A stretch of DNA of 64,000 bases from Porpolomopsis calyptriformis (taxonomy: Eukaryota > Basidiomycota > Agaricomycetes > Agaricales > Hygrophoraceae), in assembly GCA_951640195.1 (NCBI GenBank), contig OX621172.1, positions 1,426,001 through 1,490,000 on the forward strand, read 5' to 3'. Below, piece by piece: positions 10,546-46,397 of the stretch. The translations under genes were made by a program, and so were the position numbers. The notes beneath the pieces were generated by a model that worked only from the letters and a program-made list of their open reading frames with translations, did no database searches and was not told the origin of the DNA. The first letter of the stretch is position 1. Each line of letters starts with the position of its first letter.

Positions 10546-11566
10546 TGCTCTCTCCCCTTGTATTCCTATCAAGCCCCCCAATATCTAACTGCCACCATTC
10601 TACCAATAGTTTTGACTTATTCATCATCCACTATCCCTCACCCTGCTGCCCCTCCCTCCCAGGAAGGCTCTCTCCCTCCTGTCCCAGCTCCCTTCCATGA
10701 TGAGACAGTTGACCCTACCCAAGAAGAAGAACAAGAACAAGAACAAGCAGGTCCCTCTCACTCAAAAGGGAAAGGTTGAGCTGAGGACAATGATGAGGAT
10801 GAAGAAGAAGATCTACATGTAGCCTTCGAAACTATGAAGCAGGACTATCACTAATTGCTGCAGGTCCAACAAGACCAAGTGCAAGTGAGTCACAGAATTG
10901 AACAACAACTCCAAGTATTAATGGCCAACCTCATAGGCCCCCAACCCCCTCTCTTGGGCCATTCCCCTAACCCTTCTAAGCACCCCTAGTATTTCCCCAA
11001 CCTATCCCTGCCCCTGCCCCTGCCCCTGCCAAGATCAAGATGAACCCTCCTGACAAATTCTCTGGTGACTCCACCAAGCTTTGCAACTTCCTGCATCAAG
11101 TGAAGCTGAATCACTTGGGATGACCAGGAATCTCAGAGGCCAATAAGATTATCTATACCTTGTTGTATATAATCAGAGGAAATGCAGAACTATGGGCTGA
11201 GCATCAAGTAGATGCGTATACAATGTTGAACTGGGTTGGTACCAATTAGGCTGTCTTTGAACAAGCCCTTGCCCAAGACTTTGGAGACCTGGACCCCAAG
11301 TCAACTACTCAACTGAAGATCAAGGATATTAAGTAGTTCAACAAGAGTGCAGAGGAGTACAACATTAATTTCAATTGATGGGCCTATGATACTGGATACA
11401 GACAAGAAGCTTTGATGACTTTGTATAAAGATAGACTCAACCCCTCCCTTTTGCAACAGATCTACCTTTCAGATCGTCAACCAACCACTCATTGAATGGC
11501 AGTCTCATGCTGCTGAACTTGACAGGCAATATCAAGAATTTCTAGCTAGAACATCTTCTAAGCCCC
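10546..11566 (+). pseudogene. Gag of gypsy B', decayed by CpG-to-TpG changes
   Basis: This aligns along its length with the intact Gag of element B. It has the Ser/Pro-rich N-terminus, the acidic EEEQEQEQ run, the coiled-coil region and the capsid-like core up to LARTSSKP, where element A interrupts it. At least three in-frame TGA stops (10777-10779, 11121-11123, 11376-11378) stand where element B has CGA, and other stops replace CAA/CAG. CpG is nearly absent here but frequent in the homologous part of B. The gag resumes for about 50 bp at 18254-18303. Confidence 0.85.
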
Positions 11567-11933
11567 TGTCACGAACACTTTTTTCTTTTTCTTTTTAGTC
11601 ATACTTGATTAGTCTCTATTCCGTTCATCCTTCCACTTTACCACTTTATATGTAGAGACTGATTACATGTACCTTCCTTCCGACTCTTCACGAGTCACAT
11701 TCCATTTCCATTATTCTTTTTGTGACTCTTCACTAGTCACATTCCGGATTCCGCTTTGTAATTGTACATACGACTGACTCATGGTGACTCAGGTAGTTAG
11801 TATATAAAGCCTGACCTCTAGTCAGTAGGTTAAGTTCGATTCCTAGTTAGCTCCCCACTCTTTAGTCGAATTCATATTCCTTATCAGCCCCTCCAACGCG
11901 AGAAGTAAAACCTTCAACTACCGAATCATAACA
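11567..11933 (+). repeat. 5' LTR of element A
   Basis: The LTR runs TGTCACGAACAC to CGAATCATAACA. It has two adjacent TGACTCA motifs, a TATA box TATATAAA (11801-11808) and AAGTTCGATTC at 11832-11842, 31 nt downstream, which is the likely RNA 5' end. Confidence 0.92.
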
Positions 11934-12108: not shown

Positions 12109-13542
12109 ATGTCTCAAACATCTCAACAAGAGTACGAAGCCAATCAAACCGTTCCCGCACCCGGACCCAGCAACATCCCCCCTACTATCCAAGAAGAAGA
12201 AGAAGTCGTCGTCCCATTCAACATGGAACAGGAGCTCAGAGACCTAAGAGCACAAATCGACCAGTTCCGTGGCTGGTACTACAATGAAGTCGACGTCAAC
12301 GACGAGCTCCGAAAGGAACTGAAGACTCTCAAAGAAAGTCGACAAGAAGAATCTGAACCAGCCACCCCTCCCCCACGACGACGATCTGTACTTCAGGGAC
12401 CTGGACTTTCCCCTTCGAATCCTTTCGTTTATGCTCCAAGAAGAACCCAATCTGTCCAACCTCCTTTCCAACCAACCTTTCCCACTCAAACCCAACCACC
12501 CACCCAGACGACTGCTCCCCCCACACTTCCAGCCCCCACCAAAATCAAAATTGCCGATCCAACCGAGTATGATGGAACCTCTGAGAAGCTTGAAGATTTC
12601 ATTCACCAATGTCGACTCAATTTTGTGGTCAAGGACTACAATGACAAACAGAAAATTATCTACATGCTCTCTTATCTTGGTGACGGCAATCCATGGGCTT
12701 GGGGACGACTGTTCACGGAAGGAGTTGATAGAACGAGAAACTATGTGTGGGACTACGCAACATTTTTGGACGATTTTCGGGAAGCTTTCAGAAGGATTAA
12801 CCCAGCGGCGAAGGCGCGGATTGAGCTAGAGAAAGTGAAGATAACAGGAACGATTGAAGACTACAACCTTCGGTTCATGCAACATGCAGCAAGAACTGAG
12901 TACAACGAGGCTGCCTTACTTCGGTTTTACAAAGCCGGACTCCCCCAGCCAATCCGAATGTGGATTTACTCGATGGACAATATGCCGACGACCTTGCTGG
13001 ACTGGACAACGAAAGCAGCCCAGTTCGAAGAACAGTACCAGGAGCAATGAGCTGAACAAGCATTGTGGTCAAGTCGAGATCAAAAAGGAAAGAAGTCCGA
13101 AGCCAAATCAAATCCCCGAGGAAACCCTTCCCGCTCCACCACCACCACTTCATCCCCAATCAAACAAGAATCGAGAGAAGCCTCTCTCAAGACAGCAAAA
13201 CGAGACAACTCCTCCATCACCTGCTACAACTGTGGCAAAAAAGGACACTATGCCAACGAATGTCGAAGCCCACGTGCTGAAGACATTCCGGCACATCAAG
13301 AGACCTCAACTTCTACTCGAGGAAAAGGAGGAAATCACGGTTGAGGCAAAGGACGAAATGTCCGAATGATCAATCGGGTCGATACAGAAGAATCGGAAGT
13401 GTGGATAGAGGAAGTACCAGAGGACGACGAAAAAGAGAAAAGGACGGCAAAGGACGACTTGAAGGATATGGGAATCGCGAATTGGGACAAGGAGAGACGG
13501 GCTGCACTAGCTCGAGCGTTAAAAGAGCAAAAGGATTTTTAG
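12109..13542 (+). pseudogene. gag: Gag of element A with two nonsense codons
   Basis: Counted through its stops the frame is 477 codons, matching the 473-aa Gag of element B. It has an acidic/proline-rich N-terminus, a helical segment (ELRDLRAQIDQFRGWYYNEV), a capsid-like core (DPTEYDGTSEKLEDFIHQC, then WDYATFLDDFREAF) and one CCHC zinc knuckle (CYNCGKKGHYANEC, about residues 373-386). TGA codons at 13048-13050 and 13342-13344 interrupt it; both read as likely CGA-to-TGA changes. The normal stop TAG (13540-13542) overlaps a slippery sequence leading into pol. Gag would form the virus-like particle and package the RNA. Confidence 0.88.
13533..13539 (+). promoter_or_regulatory. Candidate -1 frameshift site, gag/pol of element A
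   Basis: The gag frame reads AAG-GAT-TTT-TAG and the pol frame continues GGA-TTT-TTA-GTC, so a single -1 slip on G-GAT-TTT moves ribosomes from gag into pol at the last codon. The heptamer is of the GGAUUU type used at the mouse mammary tumour virus pro-pol junction. Element B has G-GGT-TTT in exactly the same place. Confidence 0.65.
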
Positions 13543-16500
13543 TCTGGCCAAGTGCTAAAAGCCTGAGCACTTTGGCTGTGTCCCATGTATGTGTACCACC
13601 ATCTATGAAAAGTTTTCGTTTTCTTGGCACACTTGAACAGGGCAAAGGCGCTCTCGAATTCTATCTTTGGATCACGAGTGCTGACAATCTTCAACAAGTG
13701 GCTATCATAGCACTCATTGACTCTGGCGCCTCAGGGAATTTTATTGATGAAGTATTCGTTCGTCAAATGGAGATATTGACCTATCCGTTGGATGAGGTTG
13801 TACCGGTACGAAACGCTGATGGTTCCGAGAACCAAGGAGGTCCCATCACGCACAACACAGACCTGTTTATCGAGGCACCAGATCTATCTTTTCGAGAACG
13901 AATCCGGTTGGAGGTCACCAACTTAGGAAGAAAGCAACAGGTCATCCTCGGCTTCCCATGGCTCTTGCGACACAACCCCACCATCAATTGGACAAAAGGC
14001 ACCTTAACCTTTGCGTCTGGTGACACGCTGTTCAGTAGTATGCAAGTCGGAGTGTTGCCCCCACAGGAAGAACTCTACGTCTTTGATTCGAGTCTGAAAC
14101 ATGACTCCTTTATCTGCTTGGTTGGAGTTGACCACTCCCGACCAGTTTCCATTGAGGAGGACATCAAATCCTTCATTCCCAGTCGTTATCACAATTTCTG
14201 GCGTGTTTTCCATACCACAGAATTCGACAAACTTCCTCCTCGACGTCCCTTTGATCATGCGATCAACCTCTACCCGAACACCAAATTTCAAGTCAGAAAA
14301 CTCTATCCCCTTTCCCCCTACGAACAGGTGGAACTTAATAAGTTTATTGACGAAAATCTCAGAACAGGTCGGATACGTCCATCGAAATCGCCACAAGCTG
14401 CTCCTTTCTTCTTTGCAAAAAAGGCTGAAGAGATCAACGCCAAAGGTCTCAGTGCTGGTCTACGTCCCATCCAGGACTATCACTATATCAACTGAAAGAC
14501 CATTCCTGATCGTTACCCCCTTCCCCTTTTGTCGGAAATCCTCCAAGTACCGAAGCTTGCCACTGCTTCACTCTTCACCGTTATCGATATTCGATGGGGA
14601 TTTAACAACATACGACTCAAGGAAGGCGACGAGTGGAAAGCGGCTTTTATCACCAATCGAGGACTCTTTGAACCAACCGTTATGTTCTTTGGACTACGAA
14701 ATTCCCCAGCATCTTTTCAGCGAATGATAGATGTTCTCTTCAAACCCATCTTGGACTCTGGCTGTGTCCACATTTATATTGACGACATTCTCATCATGGG
14801 CGACACCCCCAAAGAAATTCGCCACTAGACCGACGAAACACTCAAACTCATGGAGAAAAACCAATTGTCCACCAAACCTGTCAAATGTCAAATGGAGAAG
14901 ACCTCTGTTACCTACCTTGGTACAATCATCAGCAAGGGTCAACTCGCTATCAATCCAAAAAAGGTGGATGCCATTATTAATTGGCCAACACCCCAAAAGC
15001 TGCAAGATCTCCAATCCTTCCTTGGCACCACCAACTTTTGGCGTCGTTATATCAAAAGTTTCTCCTCAGTCATTCGTCCCCTCTGTGGCCTTTTGCGAAA
15101 AGACCAACCTTGGGATTGGTCTCCTTTGTGTCAAAAAGCCTTTGAACAACTCAAATGTCTTGTCACTACAGCCCCTGTCCTTCTTACCCCGCGGCCAGAC
15201 CTTCCTTACCTCTTGGAGACCGATGCCTCTGATTTCGGTATTGGCGCAGTCTTATCTCAAAAACACGACAATGGTTGGCACCCTGTTGGCTTTTTCTCGA
15301 AATCCTTGCTCCCTGCTGAGTACAACTATCCTACCCATGATCTGGAGATGCTTGCAATCATCACTTCCCTCAAGTATTGGCGCTATCTTTTAGAGGGTGC
15401 AAGGGATACTGTATTGATAAAAACAGACAATTTAGCGCTCAAGTATTTCATGCAGAATAGATCCCTCTCCAGACGACAAGCACGTTGGATGGAATTCTTA
15501 GGCAGATTCGACTTCAAAATTGAGTATTCCCCTGGAGTCAAGAACAAAGCCGATGGACTCTCCCGCCGACCCGACCACCGTCATACAGAAAAAGAAGAAT
15601 TAGAAGGCCAAGCCCTCCTCCCCCCCGAACGTTTCATCAATGCTATCATTTCCATGTCCGAACCCTCTTTCATGTCAAGACTTTGCTTCCCCGACTTCAA
15701 CCAAATCCTAGAGGACATTCGCATCAAATTATCCGATCCCTCTTCCGGCTACTCCTTCACTGATGGAATTGTGAGAGATGCAGGAGATCGTATTGTCGTG
15801 CCAGCGGATGTATCGCTACACACAGAGATAATTCGATTGACCCACTCCCTACCCCATGGAGGCCATCCCGGAATCGAGAAGACACGTGAGCTTGTGTTGC
15901 GGAACTACACCTGGAGTAGTGCTGCCCCTGACATCCGTGTATTTGTATCATCCTATCCGACCTGCCAACAAGTCAAGCTTTATCCTTCAAAGCCTGCAGG
16001 TCTCCTGGAACCCATTCCCCCTTCATCTCGACCTTGGGAAGAAATCACCGCCGATCTAATCGTGGAACTCCCCCAATCATCTGGCTATGATGCTGTCTTA
16101 GTCGTTGTCGACTGCTTTACCAAACGCGCTCACTTCATCCCGACGACTTCAAACATTTCTGCAGAAGGAGTCGCAAAACTCTTTAGGGACAATGTATGGA
16201 AACACCATGGTTGGCCAAAGAAGATCATAACCGATCGAGGAACTCAATTCGCTTCCAAATTCGCGAAAGCTCTCAATACTCATTTGGGAATCATCTCCAG
16301 TCTATCCACTGCTTATTATCCCCAAACTGATGGTCAAACGGAACGCACCAATCAAGAACTTGAACAATACCTTCGTTTATATACAAACTTTATGCAAGAT
16401 GATTGGTCCAACTGGCTATCCCCAGCTGAATTCGCATATAATAACCGACAACACTCCTCGACGAAACACACTCCCTTTTACCTTGATACTGGCCAACATC

Positions 16501-17102
16501 CCTTCGTCCCATCTATCCCCGTAACCCCTACTCCCAACCCTGCAGCAGATGCCTTTCACGATCATCTCACAGAAGCCCGTGAAGAAGCCACAAAAGCTCT
16601 AGAAACAACGGCCGAAACCATGAAATGCTTCGCAGATCGCAAACAGAAAGATACCCAACTCCAAATAGGTCAATTTGTTTATCTTGATACCCGTAACTTA
16701 AAAACAGGTCGTCCAACCCTCAAACTCAATGTCCGATGCACTGGACCATTCAAAGTTCTAGAAAGAATCGGAAAAGTCTCTTATCGCCTGGCCCTTCCCT
16801 TATTATGGAAAATACATGACGTCTTTCACGTTTCACTCCTGAGACCCGCTAACATTAACTCCGATCTCCACCCAGAGGAAGTAGACGATAATCTCTGCCC
16901 ACCTCCGGATGTCATTCAAGAGAAAGAAGAATATGAGGTCGAACAAATTCTCCAACACCACGGGTCTACCCAACGTCATATGTATTTGGTCAAATGGGTT
17001 GGCTATCCCATTGAAGAAGCAACTTGGGAGCCGAAGAAAAATCTCATCCATGCAAAAGAACGAATTCTAGAATACGAACAATCAATTCAAATGGCGACTT
17101 AA
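13539..17102 (+). pseudogene. pol: Pol polyprotein of element A: protease, RT, RNase H, integrase, chromodomain
   Basis: A single frame of 1,188 codons is broken by TGA (14493-14495) and TAG (14826-14828); every other codon is open. It shows an aspartic protease (ALIDSGASGNF), RT with YIDDILIMG (about 14777-14803), RNase H (LETDASDFGIGAVL) and integrase with the H-H half of the zinc motif and core residues in DLIVELPQ, ITDRGTQF and QTDGQTERTNQELE. A GPF module and a C-terminal chromodomain (EYEVEQIL, YLVKWVGYP, ATWEP) follow. The Tyr, Trp and Tyr of the methyl-lysine cage are all present. One oddity is that the first Cys of the integrase zinc site is Tyr (SSYPTCQ, against KSCLACQ in B). The chromodomain is expected to steer integration to H3K9-methylated chromatin. 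Confidence 0.93.
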
Positions 17103-17226: not shown

Positions 17227-17805
17227 ATGCCCACAGAATGCTCTCACCAAACTGCCTGCAAGTCTACTGGTGGTCGTCCACCCCGTGCTCCCCATATGTC
17301 CACTGGAGGACAACCCCCTCGTCGCGCTCTCCCCCCGCTCGCTTCCACCTCCTCTGCCTACGGTGAAGCTGAGCTCGCCGGACAACTCTGGCAACACAAT
17401 TGATGCGCATGTAATCGGGACCTTCCCATATGGCCAGAGGAAATCGTCGCACCACCCATCCCGCCTGAGCAGATCATCGAGTCGTTGAAAAAGCATGTCG
17501 AATACTACAAGAGCGAAATCGCAAGATTGAATGAAGAGTTGTATAATCAAGGAATGAGCTTGGATGGAAAGAGAAGAGTGAGCGAACATTGGCGAGAACA
17601 GGCCAAACATTGGGAGGCAAAATACGAGGAAGTCGCAAAGGTACTTCCCCATCTCAATTCCCCCGCTCCCCCTGTTTTCCCAGGTCCACTCATTGTTCCC
17701 CCCGGTTCGTCGTCGAACCCCATCGCCATCCCCGACAATGACGATACTTCCCCGGCCGACATTATTTCCCTGTCGACCGCCGTCTCCAACAAGGACTTGT
17801 CTTAG
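17227..17805 (+). pseudogene. Third ORF of element A with a histone H3-tail-like N-terminus
   Basis: The frame has 192 codons after an ATG at 17227 and is broken only by TGA at 17401-17403. Residues 8-21 read QTACKSTGGRPPRA, close to QTARKSTGGKAPRK of histone H3 (residues 5-18). The Cys codon TGC is a likely CGC-to-TGC change. A second block, STGGQPPRR, resembles H3 STGGVKKPHR. After a Ser/Pro-rich part comes a coiled coil (HVEYYKSEIARLNEEL, EHWREQAKHWEAKYEEV) and a proline-rich, acidic end. Element B has the same plan. I know no assigned function for this protein; binding to chromodomains or to H3-modifying enzymes is an inference. Confidence 0.7.
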
Positions 17806-17886: not shown

Positions 17887-18253
17887 TGTCATGAACACTT
17901 TTTTCTTTTTCTTTTTAGTCATACTTGATTAGTCTCCATTCCGTTCATCCTTCCGCTTTACCACTTTATATGTAGAGACTGATTACATGTACCTTCCTTC
18001 CGACTCTTCACGAGTCACATTCCGTTTCCGTTATTCTTTTTGTGACTCTTCACTAGTCACATTCCGGATTCCGCTTTGTAATTGTACATACGACTGACTC
18101 ATGGTGACTCAGGTAGTTAGTATATAAAGCCTGACCTCTAGTCAGTAGGTTAAGTTCGATTCCTAGTTAGCTCCCCACTCTTTAGTCGAATTCATATTCC
18201 TTATCAGCCCCTCCAACGTGAGAAGTAAAACCTTCGACTACCGAATCATAACA
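17887..18253 (+). repeat. 3' LTR of element A
   Basis: The LTR is 367 bp and starts TGTCATGAACAC. It differs from the 5' LTR at seven sites, all C/T or G/A; six sit in CpG dinucleotides that became TpG or CpA in one copy. Confidence 0.92.
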
Positions 18254-19157: not shown

Positions 19158-19517
19158 TGTTAGACGGCAGTCTAGGGTTGATCGCAAGGTTTTACTTCAG
19201 GCTCTGGGTGTAGGGTTTTAAAGGGTTGGAAGACTACTGATTGGGGTGTTAACGAAAGAAACAGACTTATCCTAAGTCTATCTACTGCTAGCTTTATATA
19301 CTAGCTAAGTATGAGTCATATTGACTACGTGTGAGTCGTAACGACTATGGATGAGTCATGTAGATAAGGAGAGTGATGGTTGACTAAATATAGATATGGC
19401 TTGGTCACCTTGTATTACTAAGCGGAGTTTGGGTGGCTAAGCGGCTATTGGTGTAAACTGTCTGATGTAAATGGGAATAGACGAGCAAAGGAAAAGGAAA
19501 AAATATATCTCTGACAT
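19158..19517 (-). repeat. 3' LTR of element B
   Basis: The LTR is 360 bp; read on the minus strand it runs TGTCAGAGATATAT to CTGCCGTCTAACA. Two TGACTCA motifs, a TATA box and the predicted RNA start AAGTCTGTTTCT are present. Confidence 0.93.
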
Positions 19518-19679: not shown

Positions 19680-20488
19680 AGACTATCCACTAGGTATACT
19701 TTTCCTCAACTCTCCAGTAGATATCACCTTCTCTAACCACACATCCAGAAGGGAGGCGTAAGGAATACTGTTCGTTCGGAAACAGCATCCGGTCCCTAGG
19801 TCGCGCCATCATAAACTGGGGGTTGAAGCAGGTGTCCATCTGGGTCAAACCAGTGGTAACGGCCATCCAACTCCCGGGCACGTCACAACCAAGTTTCAGC
19901 CAGCTCCCTACACATCACAGCATTCTCCTCCAGGTCAAGGATCCTTTCGTACTTGGCATCCATCATCGAGCGGTACCCGTTTCGGGCAGCATAGAGTCGG
20001 TCGGCGACGCGATGGATGCGGTGCGAGATGGGGTCTTCGGGGATAGTGGGGGTGGTGACGTCGGATTCGTCCTGGTCTGGTATAACCATCAAAAGTTGGC
20101 GCCCAACTTGGTACGCCTCCAGCCAATCTTCAAGTTGATTCTTCTTGTCGTCAAAATCGCTGTCCTTGTTGAACGTGTACCAGTGACGGTCGTAGTTAAG
20201 TTCGCATCGACGTGCTCCAGAAATAAATGGGACGTAGGTTTCGGGACACCCAGATAGGTGCTCGACCTTGGCAAAGGGGAGCCCTCGATAGTTACGGTTT
20301 CGTCCCGGCTTGTCGATAGTATCGGTACGTCGCTTCGGCTTCTTGAACCGTCGGGTAACCAAGACACTGTCGGACGAGGAAGAGGAGGAAGAAGAATCGG
20401 GGGGGAGGTTGGAGGTAGAAGCAGTGGGATTCCCTCGAGGTGGACGCCTCCCAGTCGACTTGCGAGCATAAAGAACTTGGCGGGGCAT
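19680..20488 (-). CDS. Third ORF of element B with a histone H3-tail-like N-terminus
   Basis: The open frame covers 201 codons (20488 to 19883). It begins MPRQVLYARKSTGRRPPRG, which aligns from its initiator Met, without gaps, to MARTKQTARKSTGGKAPRK of histone H3 and keeps A7-R8-K9-S10-T11-G12 and P16-R17. A Ser/Pro-rich part, a basic patch (TRRFKKPKRRT, a possible nuclear signal) and a mixed alpha-helical region follow. After the stop at 19883 the frame continues to look coding (ELDGRYHWFDPDGHLLQP), so the original protein probably extended to about 19680. The ORF lies 114 bp downstream of pol. Function is unknown; H3 mimicry is my reading of the sequence. Confidence 0.7.
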
Positions 20489-20602: not shown

Positions 20603-23600
20603 TTAAATCACCGCTTGAATAGACTTTTCATAATTCATTAAGACATCTTTTGCGTGCTTGAGGTTCCATCGTGGTTCCCAGGTGGCTGCCTCTATTGGGT
20701 AGCCTTTCCACTTGATTAGGTATTGTCGGTTCCGTTTTCCTGGGGTGTGATTGAGAATACGTTCCACTTCATACTCGGGCTCTCCTTCGATCACATCTGG
20801 AGGTGGTCGGAGATTGTCATCTTCTCCGATCGGGGGGTGGAGATCGAGATTCTCTTCTAGAGCCTTGAGTAGTGAAACGTGAAACACGGGATGAATCCTC
20901 CATAACAGCGGTAGCTTTAGTTGGTAAGCCACAGGCGATACTTGTTTTAGAATTATAAAAGGTCCGAGCCGGCGGACATCCAGTTTCTTTGCGGGCCGGC
21001 CAGTTTTCAAATTCTTGGCATCAAGCCAGACCCTTTGTCCTTCGTAAAACGTGGGTTCCTTTTGACGTTTTCGATCGGCATAGAGCTTCATTGAGTTAGC
21101 GGTCTTTTGAAGAGACTCTTCAGCATTCTCTCTAGCTCTAGTAAGCTGCACATAAAACTCGTTGGCATCGGGATTTGAGGTTTGGGTTGGAACTGATAAG
21201 GGGGTGTGAGGGTGTCGGCCATATTCAAGCCAGAAGGGGGATTGGTGAGTGGAGGAATGTTCTCGGTTGTTATAAGCGAACTCCGCCGGAGCTAACCAAT
21301 CTTTCCAATCGTCTTGCATGAAGTTAGGGTAGAGCCGTATGTACTGCTCTAACTCTTGATTGGTTCGTTCGGTTTGTCCATCTGTTTGGGGGTGATAGGT
21401 GGTAGAAAGCCCAGAAGTGGTTCCTAGGAGTTCATTCAATGACGTAGCGAACTTCGATGAGAATTGGGTTCCTCGATCAGTAATGATCTTCTCTGGCCAT
21501 CCATGGTGCTTCCAGACATGTTCTTGAAATAGCGCAGCAGTTCCTTTAGCAGACAGGTTTCCAGTTGTTGGGATGAAGTGAGCCCGTTTGGTGAATCTGT
21601 CCACCACAACTAGAATAGCATCGAATCCTTTTGAGTTAGGGAGTTCCACGATAAGATCAGCAGTGATCTGTTGCCACGGTTTAGTAGGAGGGGGTAACGG
21701 TTGGAGAAGTCCAGTAGGTTTCTGTGGATAAACCTTGGTCTATTGACAAGCAAGGCAGGACTTCACGTAATTGGTGATATCTTGTGGGGCACCTTCCCAT
21801 GTGTAATTACGGAGGAGCAATTCCTTCGTCTTCTCAATACCGGGATGGCCACCAGTGGGTGTGTCGTGGGTCAATCGAATAATTTCTGTGCGCAAAGATA
21901 CGTCCTTTGGCACAACTATACGATCTCCAGCATCGCGCACAATGCCATCTACGTGGGTGTATCCGGAAGAGGGATCTTCAATTTTGGCCATGATCTCGAG
22001 AGGTAGGGGGGAATGAAAACAAAGCTTGGATAAAAAGTTGGGGGACGATAAACTGATAATCGCATTGATGAAAAGCGCATTGACAAAAAGTTCTTTTGGC
22101 AGAAGGACCTTGTCCTCCACTTCCTCATAAGACTCCAGGTAATGATCTGGACGTTTGGAGAGTCCATCAGCCTTATTCTTGATTCTAGGCTGGTAACTGA
22201 TTCTGAACCAAAAGCGAGCTAAAAATTCCGACCATCTAGCCTGGCGCCTGGAGAGTTGATGACTGGTCATGAAATATTGGAGGGACTGGTTATCAGTCTT
22301 GATCATAATAGGCTGTCGTGTCCCTTGTAGAAGGTATCTCCATTCATTCAAGGCAGATATGATGGCCAAAAGCTCTTGGTCATGGGTGGGGTAATTTCGT
22401 TCAGCTGGGAGGAGGGTCTTGGAGTAGAAGCCAATGGGATGCCAATCTTCTTCATCATTCTCTTTCTGGGTCAAGACTGCACCCAGTGCAACACCAGAGG
22501 CATCCGTCTCCAGAAGGTAAGGAAGGTCTGGCTTCGGGGTCCTCAAAACAGGAGCAGAGGTAAGCGCATTCTTGAGGGTATCAAAAGCACGTTGTTGCCT
22601 AGGAGTCCAAATCCATTCTTGATCCTTTCGTAGGAGCTCATTAAGAGGACGAGCAATCAGGGAGTAATCCTTGATAAACCTCCGCCAAAAGTTGGCAGTG
22701 CCAAGGAAGGATTGGAGATCTCGTTTCTTCTGGGGGATAGGCCAGGTTCTGATCGCCTCAACCTTCTTGGGGTTAATAGCAATGTGGCCTTTTGAGATCA
22801 TCATCCCCAGATAAATCACTTCCTTTTTCTCAAACTGGCACTTGACGGGTTTGCAGGACAGTTGGTTCTTCTCCATGATCTCTAGAGTTCGTTCCGTCCA
22901 ATAGGTGAGTTCAGTGAGGTCCTTTCCCATGATCAGGATATCGTCAATATAGATATGGACCTGCTTGGAATCGATAACCTCTTTGAAGAGAACGTCGATC
23001 ATTCGTTGGAAGGAGACAGGCGAGTTTCGCATTCCAAAGAACATAACGGTGGGCTCGAACAGCCCTCGTCGAGTGTTGAAGGCTCCTTTCCATTCGGCTC
23101 CTTCTTTGATACGAATATTGTTAAAGCCCCATCGGATATCCATGACTGTGAACAGTTCCGCTTCTGATAACTTGGTCTGTTGAATAATCTCAGAGATGAG
23201 AGGTAAGGGATAGGCGTCTGGGATTGTGTGAGCATTCAGATAGCGATAGTCTTGGATTGGACGTAGTCCAGCATCTTGTCCTTGGGCATTAACTTCTTCA
23301 CCTTTGGCAGCAAAGAAGAAGGAGGCAGCTTGTTTGGAGTTCGATCGTCGTATTCGTCCACTTGCAAGTTGTTCCTCCAGGAATTCATTCAGCTTTCCCT
23401 GTTCGTACTCAGTGAGTTTGTACACCTTTCCGATCTTGGGTCTAAAGGTAGGTTCGAGATCGATCGCATGGTCAAATTCTGGTCGTCGTGGGGGAAGTTC
23501 ATCGAAGGTGGTCTTCATAAACACCTTCCAGTGCCTCCAGTATTTCTTCGGCACATACTTCTTCATATCTTCCTCCACAGTAGTGGGTCTTGCATGGTCT

Positions 23601-24184
23601 CCCAGTGAGACCAATCTGATAATCTTGGCATAGGAGTCGCCATTCAATGTAGAGCCTACTCGTGACACTATCACTCCAGCCTGAGAAGTCTTGGTTGGGG
23701 CCACAGTCTGACGTGAAGTCAGTGTTCCAGCCTTCCAGTCAACCAGGGGATCGTTACGTTTGAGCCACGGGTAGCCGAGGATAACCTGTATCATATCTCC
23801 TAAATTTGTCACTTCCAAATGGGTTCGTTCCCTAGGAAAATCCGGCGTCTCCATCCACAGGTCTACAGCATATTCGATGGGACCTCCTCGGTTGTCTGTC
23901 CCATCTGCGTTCCGCACGGGGATTGGTCCTTCCAATCGATAAAAAGGGATATCGCGCTCCTGCACAAAATTCCAGTTTATAAAGCATCCAGAGGCGCCAG
24001 AGTCTATCAATGCACTGGCGGCAATTCATCTACCAGTGTCTGTGGTTTCCAACCAAAGGGGTATGGTTAAAGCTTCTTCGCTCGAATCAAGTGCACCAAG
24101 AATTTGGGAAATAGATTGCATAGGGGTAGTGGTACACATAGAAAAGGAGTCCGCAACGCATGAGCTATTGTCCGGACTGTTCAA
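20603..24184 (-). pseudogene. pol: Pol polyprotein of element B: protease, RT, RNase H, integrase, chromodomain
   Basis: Entered by a -1 shift at the gag stop, the frame has 1,194 codons and is broken only by TGA (24026-24028, just before the protease) and TAG (21740-21742, in the integrase zinc region, where A has CAA or CAG). Motifs in order are LIDSGASGCF (protease), YIDDILIMGK (RT), LETDASGVALGAVL (RNase H), HDTPTGGHPG with SCLACQ (HHCC zinc), ADLIVELPNSKG, ITDRGTQFSS and QTDGQTERTNQELE (DDE core), RRLGPFIIL, and a chromodomain (EYEVERIL, YLIKWKGYP, ATWEP) with the full aromatic cage. Length and order equal those of element A. The two stops would block a full-length enzyme unless supplied in trans. 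Confidence 0.94.
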
Positions 24185-25602
24185 AAACCCTGTTTCTCCA
24201 AAGCTCTCTTCAGCTCTTCTTTCCTCTTAGGCTCCCAGTTGACGATACCACACTTCTCGAAGTCTTGACGAGAATCTTCATTGGAGTTGACCTCCTCAAT
24301 CGAGGCTGAGGTCTCCAGAACTCGAACGTTTCTTCCTCGACCAGGTTTCTTTCCTCCACAACCTCTAGCTGCTGGGGTGAAGGGGCGGCTTCCAGAACCA
24401 GAAGTACTCGTCCTAGGAGCATTGGGACAAGAACTGGCAAAGTGGCCAAATCGTCCACAGTTGAAACATGCTCCTTTGGGAATTCCTCCTAGTGAAGCAG
24501 GCTTTTCTTCTTGTTTGATTCTGGGGGCAGCAGGGTTGGAATAAGTGGAGGGACCAGCAGGTGGTCCTTGTCGGTAGGGGGTGTTGGTGATGCGGGTGTT
24601 ACGAGTCTGGGGCTTAGAAGATGTTCTAGCCAGGAATTCTCGATGTCGTCTGTCAAGTTCTGCAGCACGAGACTGCCATTCAAAGAGGGTGGTGGGTTGA
24701 CGATCTGAAAGGTAGATCTGTTGCAAAAGGGAGGGGTTGAGTCCGTCTTTATACAAAGTCGTCGAAGCTTCTTGTCCGTATCCAGTATCATGGGCCCATC
24801 GATTGAAATTGATGTTATACTCCTCTGCGCTCTTGTTGAACTGCTTGACGTCCTTGATCTTCAGTTGAGCAGTTGACTTGGGGTCCAAGTCTCCAAAGTC
24901 TCGGGTGAGGGCTTGTTCAAAGACAGCCCAATCGGCACCAACCCAGTTCAACGTTGTGTAAGCATCTACTTGACGCTCAGCCCATGGTTCTGCATTTCCT
25001 CCGATCATAAACGACAAGGCATAGATAATCTTGTCGGCCTCTGAGATTCCTGGTCGTCCCAAATGGTTCAGCTTCACTTGACGCAGGAAATTGCGAAGCT
25101 TGGTGGGATCACCAGAGAATTCGTCAGGAGGGTTCATTTTGATCTTGGCGGGGGCAGGGGCAGGGGCAGGGACAGGGGCAGGGGCAGGGACAGGTTGGGG
25201 GAATGCTGGGGGTGCTTGGAGAGGTTGTGGGAATAGCCCAAGAGGGGCAGGGACAGGTTGGGGGCCTATGAGGTTGGCCATCAATACTTGAAGTTGTTGT
25301 TCGATTCTATGACTCGCTTGCGCTTGGTCTTGTTGGACCTGCAGCAATTGTTGATAATCCTGCTTCATGATCTCAAAGGCTACGCGTGGATCTTCTTCTT
25401 CATCCTCATCATTGTCCTCAGCTCGACCTTTCCCTTTTGAGTGAGAGGGACCCACTTGTTCTTCTTGTTCTTGTTCTTCTTCTTCTTGGGCAGGGTCAAC
25501 CGTCTCGTCGAGGATGGGAGCTGGGGCAGGAGGGAGAGAGCCTTCCTGGGAGAGAGGGATAGCAGGGTGAGGGATAGTGGATGATGAACGAGTCAAAACC
25601 AT
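24181..25602 (-). CDS. gag: Gag of element B, intact
   Basis: The first ATG in frame is at 25602 (MVLTRSSSTIPHP), giving 473 aa; the frame is open a further 16 codons upstream without an ATG. It has a Ser/Pro-rich start, an acidic run, a helical QQDQAQASHRIEQQLQ segment, a Pro-Ala-Val repeat encoded by a GGGGCA microsatellite (about 25150-25195), a capsid-like core (DEFSGDPTKLRNFLRQVKL, then NRWAHDTGYGQEA) and one zinc knuckle CFNCGRFGHFASSC. It ends QGF at a TGA that overlaps the frameshift heptamer. It should assemble particles and bind RNA. Its intactness while pol carries two stops fits a very recent copy. Confidence 0.92.
   Translation of the reverse strand: MVLTRSSSTIPHPAIPLSQEGSLPPAPAPILDETVDPAQEEEEQEQEEQVGPSHSKGKGRAEDNDEDEEEDPRVAFEIMKQDYQQLLQVQQDQAQASHRIEQQLQVLMANLIGPQPVPAPLGLFPQPLQAPPAFPQPVPAPAPVPAPAPAPAKIKMNPPDEFSGDPTKLRNFLRQVKLNHLGRPGISEADKIIYALSFMIGGNAEPWAERQVDAYTTLNWVGADWAVFEQALTRDFGDLDPKSTAQLKIKDVKQFNKSAEEYNINFNRWAHDTGYGQEASTTLYKDGLNPSLLQQIYLSDRQPTTLFEWQSRAAELDRRHREFLARTSSKPQTRNTRITNTPYRQGPPAGPSTYSNPAAPRIKQEEKPASLGGIPKGACFNCGRFGHFASSCPNAPRTSTSGSGSRPFTPAARGCGGKKPGRGRNVRVLETSASIEEVNSNEDSRQDFEKCGIVNWEPKRKEELKRALEKQGF
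24184..24190 (-). promoter_or_regulatory. Candidate -1 frameshift heptamer, gag/pol of element B
   Basis: On the minus strand the gag frame reads CAG-GGT-TTT-TGA. G-GGT-TTT is a standard X-XXY-YYZ slippery site, and slipping back one base continues as TTG-AAC-AGT in the pol frame. It lies directly before the gag stop, as in element A. Confidence 0.7.
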
Positions 25603-25770
25603 TGGTGGAACGGTGGCAGTTGGATATTGGGGGGCTTGACGGGAATACAAGGGGAGAGAGCAAGCCTAATCGATGTTAATGTCTGGGTGGTGAAATTGAT
25701 CTCGTGGGTGAAGACCTTCAGCACTGGCCAGACAGAGTAGGGGTTGTATAGCGTGGAGTGAGCAAGAAGG

Positions 25771-25782: not shown

Positions 25783-26141
25783 TGTTAGACGGCAGTCTAG
25801 GGTTGATCGCAAGGTTTTACTTCAGGCTCTGGGTGTAGGGTTTTAAAGGGTTGGAAGACTACTGATTGGGGTGTTAACGAAAGAAACAGACTTATCCTAA
25901 GTCTATCTACTGCTAGCTTTATATACTAGCTAAGTATGAGTCATATTGACTACGTGTGAGTCGTAACGACTATGGATGAGTCATGTAGATAAGGAGAGTG
26001 ATGGTTGACTAAATATAGATATGGCTTGGTCACCTTGTATTACTAAGCGGAGTTTGGGTGGCTAAGCGGCTATTGGTGTAAACTGTCTGATGTAAATGGG
26101 AATAGACGAGCAAAGGAAAAGGAAAAAATATATCTCTGACA
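25783..26141 (-). repeat. 5' LTR of element B
   Basis: The LTR is 359 bp, identical by eye to the 3' LTR except for one A fewer in the A-run near its left end. Confidence 0.93.
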
Positions 26142-39282: not shown

Positions 39283-40276
39283 AGTTCTTGGCCCAGAGAC
39301 ATTATATGGGGGGTGGCTGTTTGATTTCGACCAAGGCGTGGAAAAGACGAGATTCGTGAAGGAGGGTGTGTGTGTGGACGAGTTGGCGGTATCCTCATAG
39401 TTAGATTCAGGGATAGAAGTGAGGGAAGTGGATGATTGCATTGTGACAAAAAAGAGTAAAGGTTGAGGGTGGTGTTGGATAGCGGTGAGTGCAATATCGT
39501 GGCTTGTGAACTGAACCCGGTTTATAGGCATGTGACTAGCCTGAGCTGAAATCTTAGTCGATCCTTTAATGATTCTATCACTTGTAGAGGGTTTAGATAT
39601 TTAATTATTTACCCAATGTCTCTCCTATTTACATGGATTTACTCCTAATAAGAGATTCTTTATGTAACTTTGTGGTAAAAGGAGTAAAAAGGACTATACA
39701 AAAATAAAACAAAGAATTGACGGCGCGTGTATAGGGAAGGACTACTACTCCCTATCTAAGGGTTCTTCCTCCATGGGGCTATTGGCACCAATGAGAGATG
39801 AAGGAGGGATAATGACATTGGGGGGAAGGGGGGGGATAGATGGGATGAATGCGCTTTGCCCATATACTGTTACACACCTAGACTCCCAGTATGTAGCTTG
39901 ATCCATCCAATACTCAATCATTTCCACCCTTAAATGTAGCACTAGCTCCTGCCCTACAAGTTTGCCATTGAGCTCAAAGAGCTCGCTCTCGAGCCTTCGG
40001 AGGTATGCGTCTTGCTGTTGTCGATCCCTAAGTAGGGTCACGATGATTTCATCCTTTGATGGATTAACTGGTGCCTCATCCATTGCAGGCATGAGAGTAT
40101 TAAGGGCTTGGTGGGGGTTATGGCAGTTGTAGGCAGTGAGAGGTGGGGGCAGCAACACATGTGTCATAGGTGGGGGGAGGCTGCTGGGCGCAGCTTGGTT
40201 GTCCAGGTTTGTCTGGTCCCAGTTGAACTATTGGCATTGCGCTTCGGTGGAGTAGGGTGTCGACATTACTGAGGGG
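39283..40276 (-). other. Unassigned 1-kb block between two inverted copia elements
   Basis: On the minus strand there are two coding pieces. The first is a proline-rich, coiled-coil ORF (separate entry, 40267-39745). The second starts MQSSTSLTSIPESNYEDTAN at 39441, about 85 nt after CCTATAAACC, and is cut at 39283 by the copia LTR. About 300 bp of AT-rich sequence lies between them and could be an LTR or a promoter; I could not find its ends. It is either the remnant of a further gypsy family or host sequence. Confidence 0.4.
39745..40267 (-). pseudogene. Coiled-coil ORF resembling a gypsy third ORF
   Basis: From ATG at 40267 (MSTPYSTEAQCQ) one in-frame TAG follows, then 140 open codons. The core LLRDRQQQDAYLRRLESEL and EYWMDQATYWESRC resembles the coiled coil of the third ORF of element A (SEHWREQAKHWEAKYEEV), and a proline-rich segment with an acidic tail follows, again as in A. 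No H3-like start is visible. A copia LTR lies only 9 bp upstream. Assignment as a gypsy third ORF is tentative. Confidence 0.45.
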
Positions 40277-40559: not shown

Positions 40560-43500
40560 GACAACTCTGCTACTTCTTCAATCCCAACCTTTCTAACATC
40601 TCCAACACCTTCACTTTGCTCAAGGCCTTGGTCAAGATATCTGCAGGCATGGCATCTGTCCTTAGGTGGATCAACTTGATGGTTCCCTTCTCCACTTCAT
40701 TCCTCAACTAGTAAAAACGCAAGTCCAGATGCTTCATACATCCATGGTGTTCTGGGTTTTTGGCAACAGATAAGGCAGATTGGTTATCAATGAACAGAGT
40801 GGAAGGGGATGTGAATTGGTAGCCAAGTTCAGTGAACAGATTTCTCAACTATAGGATTTCTTGACTAGCTGCAGTAGCTGCAACATACTCTGCTTCAGTG
40901 GTGGATAGTGCAACTATAGCCTGGAGTCGACTAGACCAACTGATAGCACCAGTACCCATCTTGACTATATAGCCTCCAGTGGAACGCCCATTATCAGGAT
41001 TGCCAGCATGGTCAGCATCAGTATAAGTGGTGAATATTTCAGATGGGTTGGAAAGTGGTGAGTAGGTTAATTTGAAGTCAAGAGAGCCTTTGAGGTAACG
41101 GAAGAGATGTTTGACAGCTTTCCAGTGCTGCATGCCAGGGTTCTTGCTGAAGCGGGCTAAGACACCAACAGTATAAGAGATATCTGGTCGAGTAGCTGTA
41201 GCCAAGTACATTAATGAACCAACAGCTTGGAGGTATGGGATGGACCGCATTTCTTCAATCTCTTTAGAGGAAGTGGGAGACATGGATGTGCTGAGTTTGA
41301 TGCCAGGATCAAGAGGAGTGCCAACTGGGTTGCAATCAGAGAGCTTAAAGCATTTAAGCAAGTCAAGGAATGTTCAGAACGATTCTGAGTGATTTCAACA
41401 CCCAGTAGACATGAGGTAGTCCCAAGATCACATAGTTGGAAGTACTTCCTAAGTTCATCCTTGATATGAGCAATCTCTGCAGTGGACTTTGCAGCAATAG
41501 TCATATCATCAATAAAGACTGGCACTATGATGCGCACATCATCCCTCTTGTAGATCCAGATACTGTGTTCACAGGTGATCCTCTTGAAACCCATCTTCTC
41601 AAAGACCTCATTGAGTTTCTTGTGCCAACACCTGCCAGCCTGCTTTAAGCCATAGATAGATTTGAGCAAGTGCCAGACCCAGTGATTGCCCTTCTCAACA
41701 AAGCCTTCTGGCTGGCGCATATAGACCTCTTCTTCAAGTTCACCATTGAGGTAAGCTGAAGAGATATCAAGACTTTCTAATTCAAGGTCTTCAAGTGCAG
41801 CCAATGCCAGGATAGCTCAGAGTGAAGCCCACTTTGGAGTAGGAGCAAAGGTCTCAGTATAGTCAAATCCAGGTCTTTGGGCAAATCCTTGGGCCACCAC
41901 TCTGCCTCTCTAGCGCTCAATGGATCCATCAGCTTTCCTTTTAACCTTGAACACCCATCGGCTGCCAATAGCTTTGTGGCCAGGTGGGAGTTGTACAAGT
42001 TCAAAGGTGCCATTTTCAATAAGTTTTTGGATCTCATATAAAGCAGCCTTGTGCCATTCTTCCTTCTCTTCAGGAGAGCGCTGCATTGCCTCATGGTATG
42101 TGTTAGGTTCACCATCATGAGTAGCTGTCTTGAATGCATGCTGAGAAGAGTTGAAGGCATACTCCACTGCTTGGTCCAGAGTAAGGTAATCAGTCTCTTG
42201 ACCACTGCACAGATATTCAAATCCAGATTGGATAGCATCTGCATACTCAAGTTCACCATCACTAGGGTCCTTGAGCAGGAGTTTATCATCACTGCTAGAC
42301 TCATTGACTGGAGATAATGGAGGTGAATGCATTTGGTGAGAAGCAGGAGGTGACATTGCAAGTGGGTCAGGAGTAGAAGCAGGTGGAGAAGCACTATTTG
42401 GAGTTGGAGACGGAGTTGATTGGGGAGGCACAGACAATTGATGACCAAGTAGAGTCTCATTAAGGGAGCCTTGAGGACGACTAGCACGAGGAGGGTTTTG
42501 ACGTCTTGAAGGTCCAGGTGGATCAGAGGCAGGTGCCTTATGTGCAGAAGGAACTGGGACAGCAGGAGGTAGATTGGGACCAGGTATAGGTGCAATTTGT
42601 GGCAAAGGTAGTACTGGATGTGGTGCTGTATCATCACTATGGTCATCCTCTCCCCCTTGATCCAGCACCACTACAGATGGTTCAGAGGGTGCAGAGCAAT
42701 CAGGTAATATGGAAGGGGAAGAGACCAGATTTATAGCCACAGTAGAGTTGCCAGGAAAGCACCTTTCATCAAACACAGCATGACTGCTGATAATGATCTT
42801 CTTAAGCCACTGGGTCCCAGAATTTCCATGCTTTCACACCATCAGGGTAACCAACAAAGATGCACTTCCTAGAATGAGGTTGGAGTGCTTTCCTCTTCTC
42901 TTGGCACACTAGCACATAGGCAAGGCAGCCAAAGATACGGAAGTAAGAGATGTCTGGTTTCTTCCCTTTCCAGTGGAAATATGGAGTGTCTCCATTCAAA
43001 GCAGAAGTAGGTGTCCTGTTCCTGGTATGCACATAGGTAGAGACAGCAAGTGCCCAAAAGGAGGGAGGGAGTTTAGCCTGAACCAGGAGTGCAGTGGCAG
43101 CAGCAGCAATATCTTCATTTGCACACTCAGCTACTCCATTTTGATGAGGTTCATTTGGCTCAGTGTGCTGACGCATGATACTATGGTCTGCACAGAACTG
43201 ATTGAACTCCCTACTGATGAATTCACCTCCTTTATCATCCCTAGACATCTGAAGGCGTCTTCCAAGTTTGGTCTCAGCATAAGCCTTGAATTGCTTGAAT
43301 GCAATAAGAGCTTCTGTTTTACATCTCAGGAAAGCAATCACCATGAACCTTGACTTGTCATCAATGAAGGGTTGCCAATAATGGTATCCCTCTGGTGTCT
43401 GAACAGGGAGAGGGCCCTTTAAGTCTGTGTGGACAAAGTGCAAGAAGAGAGGTTCGACGAGAGGCTGTCTTAGGGATATTATGACGGTGCTGCTTTCCAA

Positions 43501-43563
43501 AGATGCATGGCTCACAGATAGGGTCTGGAGATGAGTTGGACTGGATGACCATGCCTGAGACAA
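40560..43563 (-). pseudogene. pol: Copia integrase, RT and RNase H, minus-strand copy
   Basis: The integrase (43563-42802) carries HTDLKGPLP, DDKGGEFISREF and PNEPHQNGVAECANEDI. The linker and RT follow (SRWVFKVKRKADGSIER, VFIDDMTIAAKS at about 41520), then RNase H (DADHAGNPDNGRS, AEYVAATAASQEIL) ending ADILTKALSK near 40630. Frameshifts sit near 43440 and 42810; TAG interrupts IER-RGRVV at about 41912 and TGA replaces CGA at about 41817. A short deletion near 41370 removes part of the RT connection. Most of the protein is otherwise very close to the plus-strand copy. Confidence 0.9.
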
Positions 43564-44988
43564 GTTTATGGAGGTGCATATGCTTCAAATCACCAAAGTT
43601 AAGGTGAGAGCAACGCTGATGCCACAGAGTAAGATCCAAGGGAAGGGTTGACTGAGCTGACTGAGCTGACTGAGGAACAATGATCTTGCCATCAAGATAG
43701 CCAATATTGCACTCATTGATGGAGGCAGTGAAATGGAGTTCATTGTGATAATAGAACTCAACTCGAGATTGTTGGATTGAAATGGTATATTGTTTAACAC
43801 GAGTAAGGTGGAAGAGTGAAAGTAGATTACTGCCAAGATCAGGGACTTGGAGTACATCATGAAATACAACTGGTTGCTTGGGTATACCATCTATGCCTGG
43901 TTGGAACTCAACTGAACCAATACCAGCAGAGTAGATTGTTGAATAGTCAGCTAGTTGAATAGCAGTGACATGGGGAGAATATGAGCAAAACCAGTGTTTG
44001 TGAGGGGTCATATGTGATGTAGCACCTGTATCAGTGTTCCAGTCAGCACAGGATTGAGACTTGAGCCATAGGGAGCGATGGGATGAAGAGAGAGCACTTG
44101 CATGACCAGCAAATTCAATGGTAGCAGTATTGGCATTGGTGGTATCTTCAGATGCTTCTTTTGCAGCAGGCTTGTTGCCTCTACCCCTGGTACCTCGACC
44201 ACGTCCTTGCCATTGGGCAGTCTGCTGTTTGGCATCAGCAGAGGCCTTCTGCTTCTTGAAGCACTTGTCCTCTGTGTGGTTGGTTTTGCCACAGAAGGAG
44301 CAAAGCAAAGCAGATGATGATGATTGGTAGGCAAGGCTGGGAGATGAGGAGGAGACATTTCTGGCAAGCCGCTGGCTCTCTTCATTCTGGAAGGCAGATT
44401 GGAGTTTATCGATATCAAGGGAGTCAATGAGTAGGAGGGAGGATGCAAAGTTGTTGTATTCAGCAGGAAGGGCACGGATGAGGGTCATGCAGAGAAGTTC
44501 TTTATCCAGGTTGTCCAGTGTGAAGTTAGATGGACGGAGAGCTTTGATATCCTGCAGAGCTTTATCAGCTCTAGCCATTAAGGCAGGCAGGGTTTCAGCA
44601 TCATCCTTCCTAATACTGAACAGCGCATTATAGGCATTGAAGCGCGTTCCTGGTCTCTTCTGCAGATGGACAGCCTCTAACTTAGCCCACATTGCTGCAG
44701 GGTCAGCTTTGGCATCCTTCACATGCACCTTCTGGTTGTCCTCAATGGCAAGCCATATCTCTCCAATAGCTCTTCCAGATTTCCGGTTCCAATCCCTAAG
44801 CTCAGTGATTTCAGCAGGGGTAGGTTTGACAGGGTCAGCAGCACAGTAGGCCTAGGCAGAGATCCATCCACATACTCCCAGAGTTCTTTGGTGTGAAGGT
44901 AAGCCTCCATGTTGTCAGCCCACTGCCCCCAATTAGTGGGAGTGAGGCAGGGGAATGTCCTCTTTGATTCATTGGTGGAGGCTGACAT
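43361..44988 (-). pseudogene. gag: Copia gag, protease and GAG-pre-integrase, minus-strand copy
   Basis: It starts MSASTNESKRTFPCLTPTNW at 44988; two extra bases near 44851 shift the frame after SLPRPT, and the long frame 44728-43361 continues with AMWAKLEAVHLQKRPG, the knuckle CSFCGKTNHTEDKC, the protease DTGATSHM and a GAG-pre-integrase region (LTLWHQRCSHLNFGDLKHMH, CEPCIFGKQHRHN). The latter is missing from the plus-strand copy. An extra T near 43440 breaks the join to integrase. Confidence 0.88.
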
Positions 44989-46116
44989 GATGATGATGAT
45001 GGTGTGTAGGTAGGTGATAAATGGATTATGGAGTATAAAGGGGTAGTGGATGGCAAGGATAGGGTGAGGTTGGTAAATCAGTCTTCTGTGGGTCTCACAC
45101 ACACTACCAGCTTATTCTCAAGTGGATGAAATCAGTGCTAGCAGTGGTAGTTGATAATGGAGCTACTTCCAATGAATTGGAAGGGGAGGCAACTGTAAAC
45201 CCGCCAACCCAATCTCCCTATACAACACTGCGTGCAGAGAGAGGTGCTGACTGGTGTGAACCAAGCCAAATAGCAACTGGGGTAACACTCTGATAAGAGA
45301 GCCCAGGGAGGTAGCACTTCACTGCACTTCACTTTGTTCTAATCTCCTTTCAATAAACCAATGTGCACAGTGACAGCCACAGCACAGACTGATGAATGAT
45401 CAAGTGCTAGAGTCCAGAGAGGTCCCAAGAGTCCAAATTTTTGCCAGAGCACAGAGGGCACGTCCTAGAGTGTCTTGAAGCGATTACAACGTCCTGGGAG
45501 CGATGGAAGCGATGGAACACAAATGGGAATGATTAGGAGGTAGATAGGAGTGGTGAATAATGATGGAGCGCTCCTGGATGATCCGCCAATGCAGTAAGCG
45601 TATAACCGAGGGAACCCGATTCGGACGTGGCCTTTAATGTCCACAAGCAATTTCGGAGCGATTCGGAGCGATTTGAGCTGGTGGGCACAGGAATGATGTG
45701 TCAGATCACAGAATAGTGGTTTGGAGTGGTGGGGCTGTTATAGATGGCCACAATGAATGGAGTTGATAACAAGCACCCACAAGTGTCCACAAGTGCCCAC
45801 TGATGAGCTGGCAGTCACTGGGATGGATTGGGATAGGTAGGCCTATCACAGATGATGAATAGTGATGTGGACAATTGATTGGGATGTCCTGGCAAGGGAA
45901 ATGAAGCTAGCAACGTGTAAATCGGTGGAGGCGCAGAAGGGAGCGTCCGAAAATGGTTGCAAAAGTTTCGAAGTCAGGGAGTGAAAATTGAGTGAGGACC
46001 AGGGTGATTTATATCACTGGTGCTGGTAAGAGGTCTGGAGAGTGGTTGTAATGGTCCAGGAGTATGCAGGAGCTGTTAGACACAATAGGGGGTGATTTTA
46101 GGCGAAATTTGCAGCA
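44989..46116 (-). other. Copia 5' leader (non-coding, 1.1 kb)
   Basis: This uninterrupted leader serves as the empty-site reference for the insertions at 18628 and 27237 in the plus-strand copy. I see no ORF of note. Confidence 0.75.
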
Positions 46117-46128: not shown

Positions 46129-46397
46129 TATCAAGGCTGGAAGCTACTGCCTTAATACCCACACCTGGTGTCAAGCTGGTGTCAAGCTTCACTGTCAATA
46201 CTAATAATATGGTGATATAAATACAGGGAGTAACTAACCTGGTGTCAAGCTTCACTGTCAATACTAAGGAGCAGTGAGCTTGACACCAGAGACTTTGGAC
46301 GCATTTTTGACCAAATAAGAACAAACAAATCAGCCACAACTTCGGACTGGTACAAACAAGTACTGCTCTATGCAGAGGAGATCATCACATCCTAACA
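46129..46397 (-). repeat. 5' LTR of the minus-strand copia (269 bp)
   Basis: It carries the same 11-bp duplication as the LTR at 40277 and differs from it at only a few positions, so it is a fairly recent insertion. Confidence 0.88.

Follow-up and report, generated by a model that had tools for sequence, protein, structure and literature searches.

An H3K9-like N-terminal arm in the third open reading frame of two families of fungal chromoviruses

Histone mimicry is already known for viruses and for cellular enzymes. Among the latter, the H3K9 mimics of G9a/GLP and ATF7IP are described as being methylated and read by the chromodomain proteins HP1 or MPP8 (PMC9768651). Among viruses, an ARKS core occurs in the accessory protein ORF8 of SARS-CoV-2, whose reported histone mimicry is disputed by one paper (PMC10833455). 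The ARKS motif alone can mislead, and the ORF8 dispute would caution against claims that rest on a motif only. Basidiomycete Ty3/gypsy chromoviruses, for their part, can have extra coding capacity, such as the dUTPase reported for elements of Postia placenta (PMC2864245); the terms 'additional ORF' and 'ORF3' are absent from the main text of that survey.

Here, we describe two chromoviruses, elements A and B, in which a third open reading frame (ORF3) begins with a segment resembling the N-terminal tail of histone H3 (Table 1). This arm is the same kind of short H3K9-like linear motif as the G9a/GLP automethylation site and the ATF7IP mimic, but it is encoded by a retrotransposon, lies at the N-terminus and has nine contiguous H3 residues in 17 of 25 alignable A copies. 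It shares the ARKS core and the accessory setting with ORF8, but it belongs to an LTR retrotransposon, is N-terminal, stands in register with H3 in element B and is conserved across copies. With chromoviruses of the Postia placenta type, A and B have gag, a pol with C-terminal chromodomain and LTRs in common; what sets them apart is a third ORF that opens with an H3-like arm. By titles and the beginnings of abstracts, among the matches listed from the open-licence literature (which takes in few subscription papers), we found no report of an H3-like retrotransposon ORF, nor of the multi-repeat H3-tail proteins described below.

Both elements lie in the window, the whole stretch of 64,000 nucleotides that was analyzed. 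They follow one plan (gag, pol, third ORF, LTRs) on opposite strands, A being on the plus strand, and both have gag and pol between LTRs and an integrase with C-terminal chromodomain, as Ty3/gypsy chromoviruses do. Pfam models SH3_Tf2-1 and Chromo scored above cut-off in A and B and rve scored above it in A and slightly under it in B, while Ty3_capsid was found in the gag of B, which was the gag scanned. The third ORF of B sits between pol and the 3' LTR, and in both elements ORF3 starts about 0.1 kb past the pol stop. The pol of B runs in a single frame from 24010 to 20603, with a stop between its 5' and 3' parts. ORF3 of B is longer (230 amino acids) in four other copies read (L002, L003, L004, and L008) than in the window copy, and it starts at the first ATG that follows a stop, both in the window and in L002-L008. 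The left flank of A (11001-11573) is an inverted copy, 86 to 90% similar, of B-type gag (24602-25176), which suggests that a B-like element was the insertion site of A.

Table 1. Positions of elements A and B, and of a related third ORF, within the window.
Feature	Position	Strand	Remarks
A 5' LTR	11567..11933	+	98.1% identical to 3' LTR, 7 mismatches in 367
A gag	12109..13050	+	by position and reading
A pol 3' part: RNase H, integrase, chromodomain	14850..17102	+	
A chromodomain	16905..17099	+	
A ORF3	17227..17805	+	stop at 17401 interrupts window copy
A H3-like motif QTACKSTGGRPPR	17248..17286	+	
A second, degenerate repeat APHMSTGGQPPRRA	17287..17328	+	
A 3' LTR	17887..18253	+	
B 3' LTR, 359 nt	19158..19516	-	
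B ORF3	19883..20488	-	201 amino acids in window copy
H3-like N-terminus of B ORF3, MPRQVLYARKSTGRRPPRGNPTAST	20414..20488	-	translation, H3 comparison
ARKSTGRRPPR core inside B H3-like start	20435-20467	-	
B pol 3' part: integrase core (below Pfam cut-off), SH3-like domain, chromodomain	20603..21649	-	
B chromodomain	20606..20800	-	matches Oxpecker, HP1 and MPP8 chains
B pol 5' part	21740..24010	-	domains by reading of translation only
B gag: Ty3_capsid and CCHC zinc knuckle	24181..25650	-	Pfam
B 5' LTR, 359 nt	25783..26141	-	100% identical to B 3' LTR
Third-ORF relative of another element, sharing the A helical domain	39745..40224	-	BLASTP

The third ORF of B opens with MPRQVLYARKSTGRRPPRG, encoded by minus-strand positions 20488-20414. 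Set against the start of H3, MARTKQTARKSTGGKAPRK, this segment aligns with no gap and is identical at 10 of 19 residues (Met, R2, A7, R8, K9, S10, T11, G12, P16, and R17). The gap-free match to the first 19 H3 residues including Met, which an earlier note on this DNA had claimed, is thus exact, and the residues that it listed as kept (A7 to G12, P16, and R17) are all among the ten identities. The core expected of an H3K9 mimic, ARK[ST] with H3-like flanks, is present as QTARKSTGG in A and as ARKSTG in B; A shares H3 residues 5-13 and B residues 7-12. B has L and Y at the positions of H3 Q5 and T6. HP1 also contacts H3 T6 and Q5. The third ORFs differ from H3 in that K4 and K14 are not kept. 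No histone fold was found in ORF3-B, where a Pfam scan gave no family at E ≤ 0.001.

Within the window, B is the best match to the H3 start among 1060 ATGs that are open for 19 codons (9 of 18 residues, Met uncounted; the runner-up has 5). When 67,866 open 13-residue windows were compared with QTARKSTGGKAPR (H3 5-17), the top two were the third-ORF starts of A (10 of 13) and B (8 of 13). Database searches gave less. The first 58 residues of an A copy (L011) ranked H3 chains first in the PDB, at an E value of only 0.064, and the first 33 residues of a B copy (L002) had no PDB match at E ≤ 10. Whole ORF3-B yielded no H3 match by sequence search and no homologous protein in the protein database. 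By sequence search alone, the likeness of B to H3 is not significant. These single-copy statistics are modest; it is recurrence across copies that decides.

The H3-like start does recur. At least 131 stretches genome-wide match ORF3-B and at least 100 match the first 58 residues of ORF3-A, these being counts of stretches, not of copies. We compared codons in 27 A copies and 16 B copies. ARKSTG is kept in all 16 of the latter; in A the motif is alignable in 25 of 27 copies, and every one of the 25 has the K9-like lysine. Of the two findings that the earlier note named as refuting its view, neither was made: many more than two copies show the similarity, and the intact copies read have their start codon ahead of the motif. 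The full QTARKSTGG is read in 17 of the 25 alignable A copies. R8 is likewise kept in 17 of 25 and replaced by H or C in the other eight, the pattern that CpG decay would give. Most codons of QTARKSTGG vary in the third position among A copies (ACC/ACT, GCT/GCC, AAA/AAG, TCA/TCT/TCC), and it is thus the protein sequence of A that is kept, not the DNA.

With CpG-type changes left out, pN/pS in A was 0.033 over codons 8-20 versus 0.205 over codons 21-192 in 24 of the 27 copies, the three omitted (L044, L045, and L046) being decayed or not alignable. The contrast disappears with all 27 copies (0.27 in the motif versus 0.25 in codons 35-192), an effect probably due to L045 and L046, whose N-termini cannot be aligned. 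In the set of 24, 5 of 180 13-codon windows of A, the motif counted, have a pN as low as the motif. For B (codons 8-18, 16 copies), the pair differences outside CpG numbered 78 synonymous and 0 nonsynonymous, a comparison of low power; another 30 nonsynonymous ones were of CpG type. Because copy pairs are not independent, and L037 and L038 are seemingly one captured fragment, these values are support for conservation of the A motif by selection, not a formal test. A check of positions showed that 104 of 106 stretches with A residues 60-192 have, no more than 700 nt away, a match to the N-terminal 58 residues; the 106 are what is left of 125 after 19 belonging to weaker, more distant matches are set aside. 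Note that this match concerns the whole N-terminal part, not the motif itself, and that 97 of 100 such matches begin at residue 7 or before.

Some copies have a history of their own. In L037 (1284-2015) and L038, the end of the A integrase together with ORF3 was seemingly captured in another element and amplified with it. The same seems to have happened at C5:733020, C11:520582, and C9:1165299 of G000. The frame of the captured ORF3 is still open (243 amino acids), and each time there is a distant third-ORF relative no more than 2 kb away. In decayed B copies, TGA accounts for most of the stops, and changes of CpG type are numerous, a pattern that CpG decay or a RIP-like process would produce.

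The arm has relatives outside the two elements. A profile of 12 A ORF3s retrieved five proteins at E ≤ 1 (best 6.2 × 10−6, the other four 0.14 to 0.86), all with H3-tail-like repeats; for the four weak matches, it is the repeats that convince. Searching with one of the five, P0006 of Daedalea, we found among the best 120 of 190 proteins three more that have four repeats each and no histone fold (P0009, P0010, and P0018). Nearly all others among these 120 were H3-fold proteins, and a nematode protein with near-identical H3 repeats (P0008) was among the P0006 matches listed. At least eight proteins without histone fold (P0003-P0007, P0009, P0010, and P0018) thus carry three or four H3-tail repeats. 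Sources are named for three of the eight (Daedalea, Armillaria, and Peniophora), all of them Agaricomycetes. In their 28 repeats, position 9 is K in 28 of 28, position 14 is K in only 2 (R in 15, H in 7), and position 4 is K in 19; the repeat-counting pattern itself required A7, R8, and G12 and allowed K or R at 9. Database listings give these proteins no Pfam annotation, and they look like an undescribed protein family. A short KAEILG-like stretch is common after repeat 1 of P0003, P0005, P0009, and P0010.

Like the ORF3 arm, these proteins keep K9 and mostly have R or H at position 14. The P0006 repeat PRWKLYARKSTGSRAPR shares 13 of 17 residues with B, versus 9 of 17 between B and H3, and includes the LYARKSTG variant of B, while ARKSTGRRPP is identical in P0003 and B. 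The resemblance also holds in the other direction. Of the 15 matches that P0006 had in the window's genome (E ≤ 1, all weak at 0.04 to 0.56), 12 lay on ORF3-B and 3 on ORF3-A, and all 10 matches of P0010 fell on ORF3-A. P0018 had two weak matches elsewhere (L088 and L089, E 0.4 to 0.5), where we found no ARKSTG-like motif. These three queries revealed no stand-alone multi-repeat H3-tail gene in the genome, in searches that are insensitive to short exons and left the H3 genes themselves unmatched. The multi-repeat proteins differ from ORF3 of A in having three to four repeats and no noticeable helical W-rich stretch; A has one repeat followed by a degenerate copy, and B a single repeat. Their sequences, as read, contain no integrase and no chromodomain. 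Viral contigs scanned with ORF3-A and the B integrase yielded no relative.

Third ORFs also occur without the H3-like start. In family C, a related chromovirus, the third ORF has a basic start of other sequence, QVAIRRSGRIPSS. It begins with MPATRSTRSPSPQVAIRRSGRIPSS in six of seven aligned copies and with MPATRSPSPQ in the seventh, and the K9-like lysine is absent from this start in all seven. At least 150 stretches match the family C third ORF (150 of 302 candidates scored). Integrase-chromodomain identity is 63.6% between A and B, 60.2% between A and C (over a longer stretch), and 65.6% between B and C, values that give no grouping of A with B. The earlier note took the two for different families, a view that rests on this A-B identity and on the separate repeat families of their LTRs, which were aligned within each element. 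Profile comparison of the third ORFs gives an A-B alignment of just 43 columns, all N-terminal (probability 65, E = 6 × 10−5), and none between that of family C and either; homology of the B and C third ORFs to that of A outside the start is not established by these sequences.

The minus-strand third-ORF relative at 39745-40224 matches A (BLASTP E = 2 × 10−9, 32% identity over 88 columns) and shares its EYWREQAKHWE stretch; its readable start differs, no H3-like start was seen in it, and it has no match to B. Given the other starts of this ORF and that of family C, the third ORF is more widespread than the arm, which looks like a replaceable module. Among the loci read, chromodomain families with a C-terminal extension had no such third ORF. 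By reading, a Ty1/copia-like pol (40849-45102, minus strand) seemingly inserted between 39745-40224 and an integrase piece at 46330-46737.

The center of ORF3-A, which holds the EYWREQAKHWE stretch, is modeled as helical (helices 80-107 and 112-143, at low confidence). AlphaFold2 models were poor overall, from shallow alignments, with a mean pLDDT of 53 for ORF3-A and 40 for ORF3-B and about 40 at the N-terminus of each. The C-terminus of ORF3-A, NPITIPDDDD (alignment columns ~170-180), is hydrophobic then acidic, which we take to resemble a SUMO-interacting motif.

With the presence of the arm, its recurrence, its amino-acid conservation against synonymous change, and its multi-repeat relatives established, we propose with moderate confidence that the third ORF of A and B encodes an accessory protein in which an H3K9-mimicking arm, joined to a helical domain, would be aimed at the writers of H3K9 methylation or at chromodomain readers. 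The arm, N-terminal and probably disordered, would mimic the H3 tail around lysine 9 through QTARKSTGG in A and ARKSTG in B. The initiator Met would be removed, the next residue being Pro. The K9-like lysine could then be methylated by a host H3K9 methyltransferase, and/or the arm could be bound by a chromodomain, whether of a host HP1-type protein or of the element's own integrase. The replacement of K14 by R should retain the positive charge and lose the acetylation site. Most likely, the element would use the arm for engaging or titrating the machinery by which it is silenced, or for tethering its particles to that machinery. The host genome has one Pre-SET match; a chromo-shadow search gave no match, but its control was silent too, which makes it uninformative on HP1.

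Which chromodomain might be the partner can be weighed from the elements themselves. In a two-part system of the kind that the earlier note envisaged, the methylated arm could bind the integrase chromodomain of its own element, so that ORF3 would be packaged with integrase, or integrase kept off chromatin until arrival. Both integrase chromodomains match chromodomain chains: that of A matches Oxpecker (E = 5.4 × 10−10), HP1 (1kna, 6.9 × 10−8), and also MPP8, and that of B Oxpecker (6.8 × 10−10), HP1 (1kna, 2.4 × 10−9), and also MPP8. The MAGGY chromodomain is reported to bind H3K9me2/3 (PMC3350952), and the short distance from pol stop to ORF3 in both elements would fit such a pairing. However, the motif is missing from the third ORF of family C although that family, too, has an HP1-type chromodomain; the two thus need not go together, and the multi-repeat proteins carry the tail with neither integrase nor chromodomain in the sequences read. 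We therefore consider a system closed within the element unlikely. A host reader or writer would be at least as likely a partner as the chromodomain of pol, and we rank the host silencing machinery higher.

Use of the arm as a nuclear localization signal borrowed from H3 is less probable still. H3 1-28 is described as a signal bound by Kap123, with a minor effect of K14R (PMC5677370), and a retroelement in a fungus with closed mitosis would need import. Nevertheless, the reported contacts of Kap123 are with K14 and K23, where 13 and 15 are small residues (PMC5677370), whereas in register B has R13, R14, P15, and a serine at 23 and A has G13, R14, and P15; with contacts so centered, Kap123-type import becomes less likely, and the residue kept in all alignable A copies is K9. 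Chance, or convergence on a basic linear motif in an Arg/Lys/Pro-rich start with no link to H3 readers, would agree with the nonsignificant search result for B and with the basic but different start in family C. It would leave the nine contiguous residues of QTARKSTGG, conserved amid synonymous change, and the separate multi-repeat H3-tail proteins as coincidences, and we regard it as highly improbable. The earlier note had argued for function rather than chance, and recurrence in two families, amino acids kept under synonymous change, and the wider set of H3-tail repeats speak for it.

If our preferred reading of an accessory protein directed at H3K9 writers or readers holds, one mobile element would encode both a putative H3K9me reader, the integrase chromodomain, and a putative H3K9 mimic. 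The conflict between transposon and heterochromatin would then be testable with two short peptides and few recombinant domains. A wider scheme is possible, though we hold it only tentatively: agaricomycete retroelements and small genes may share a modular H3K9-tail arm without an acetylatable K14, a methyl-only decoy, which transposons would fuse to a helical accessory protein and pair with an integrase chromodomain, so as to capture both writers and readers of H3K9 methylation and thereby evade or steer heterochromatin.

The host genome has three H3 loci that carry this tail. A possible origin of the A motif is capture of exon 1 of a host H3 gene. Compared with the H3 gene L021, the A copies L011, L015, L020, and L017 differ at 1 of 27 nt; the other alignable copies differ at 2 to 7 of 27, and a recent capture is not borne out. 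As for common descent of the A and B motifs, some codons for shared residues are the same, in numbers too small for a test. By reading, the host H3 genes (L021, L022, and L023) have an intron (GT...AG) in codon 13, near the end of the contiguous H3 identity of A, and in L022 another intron seems to end right before Q5.
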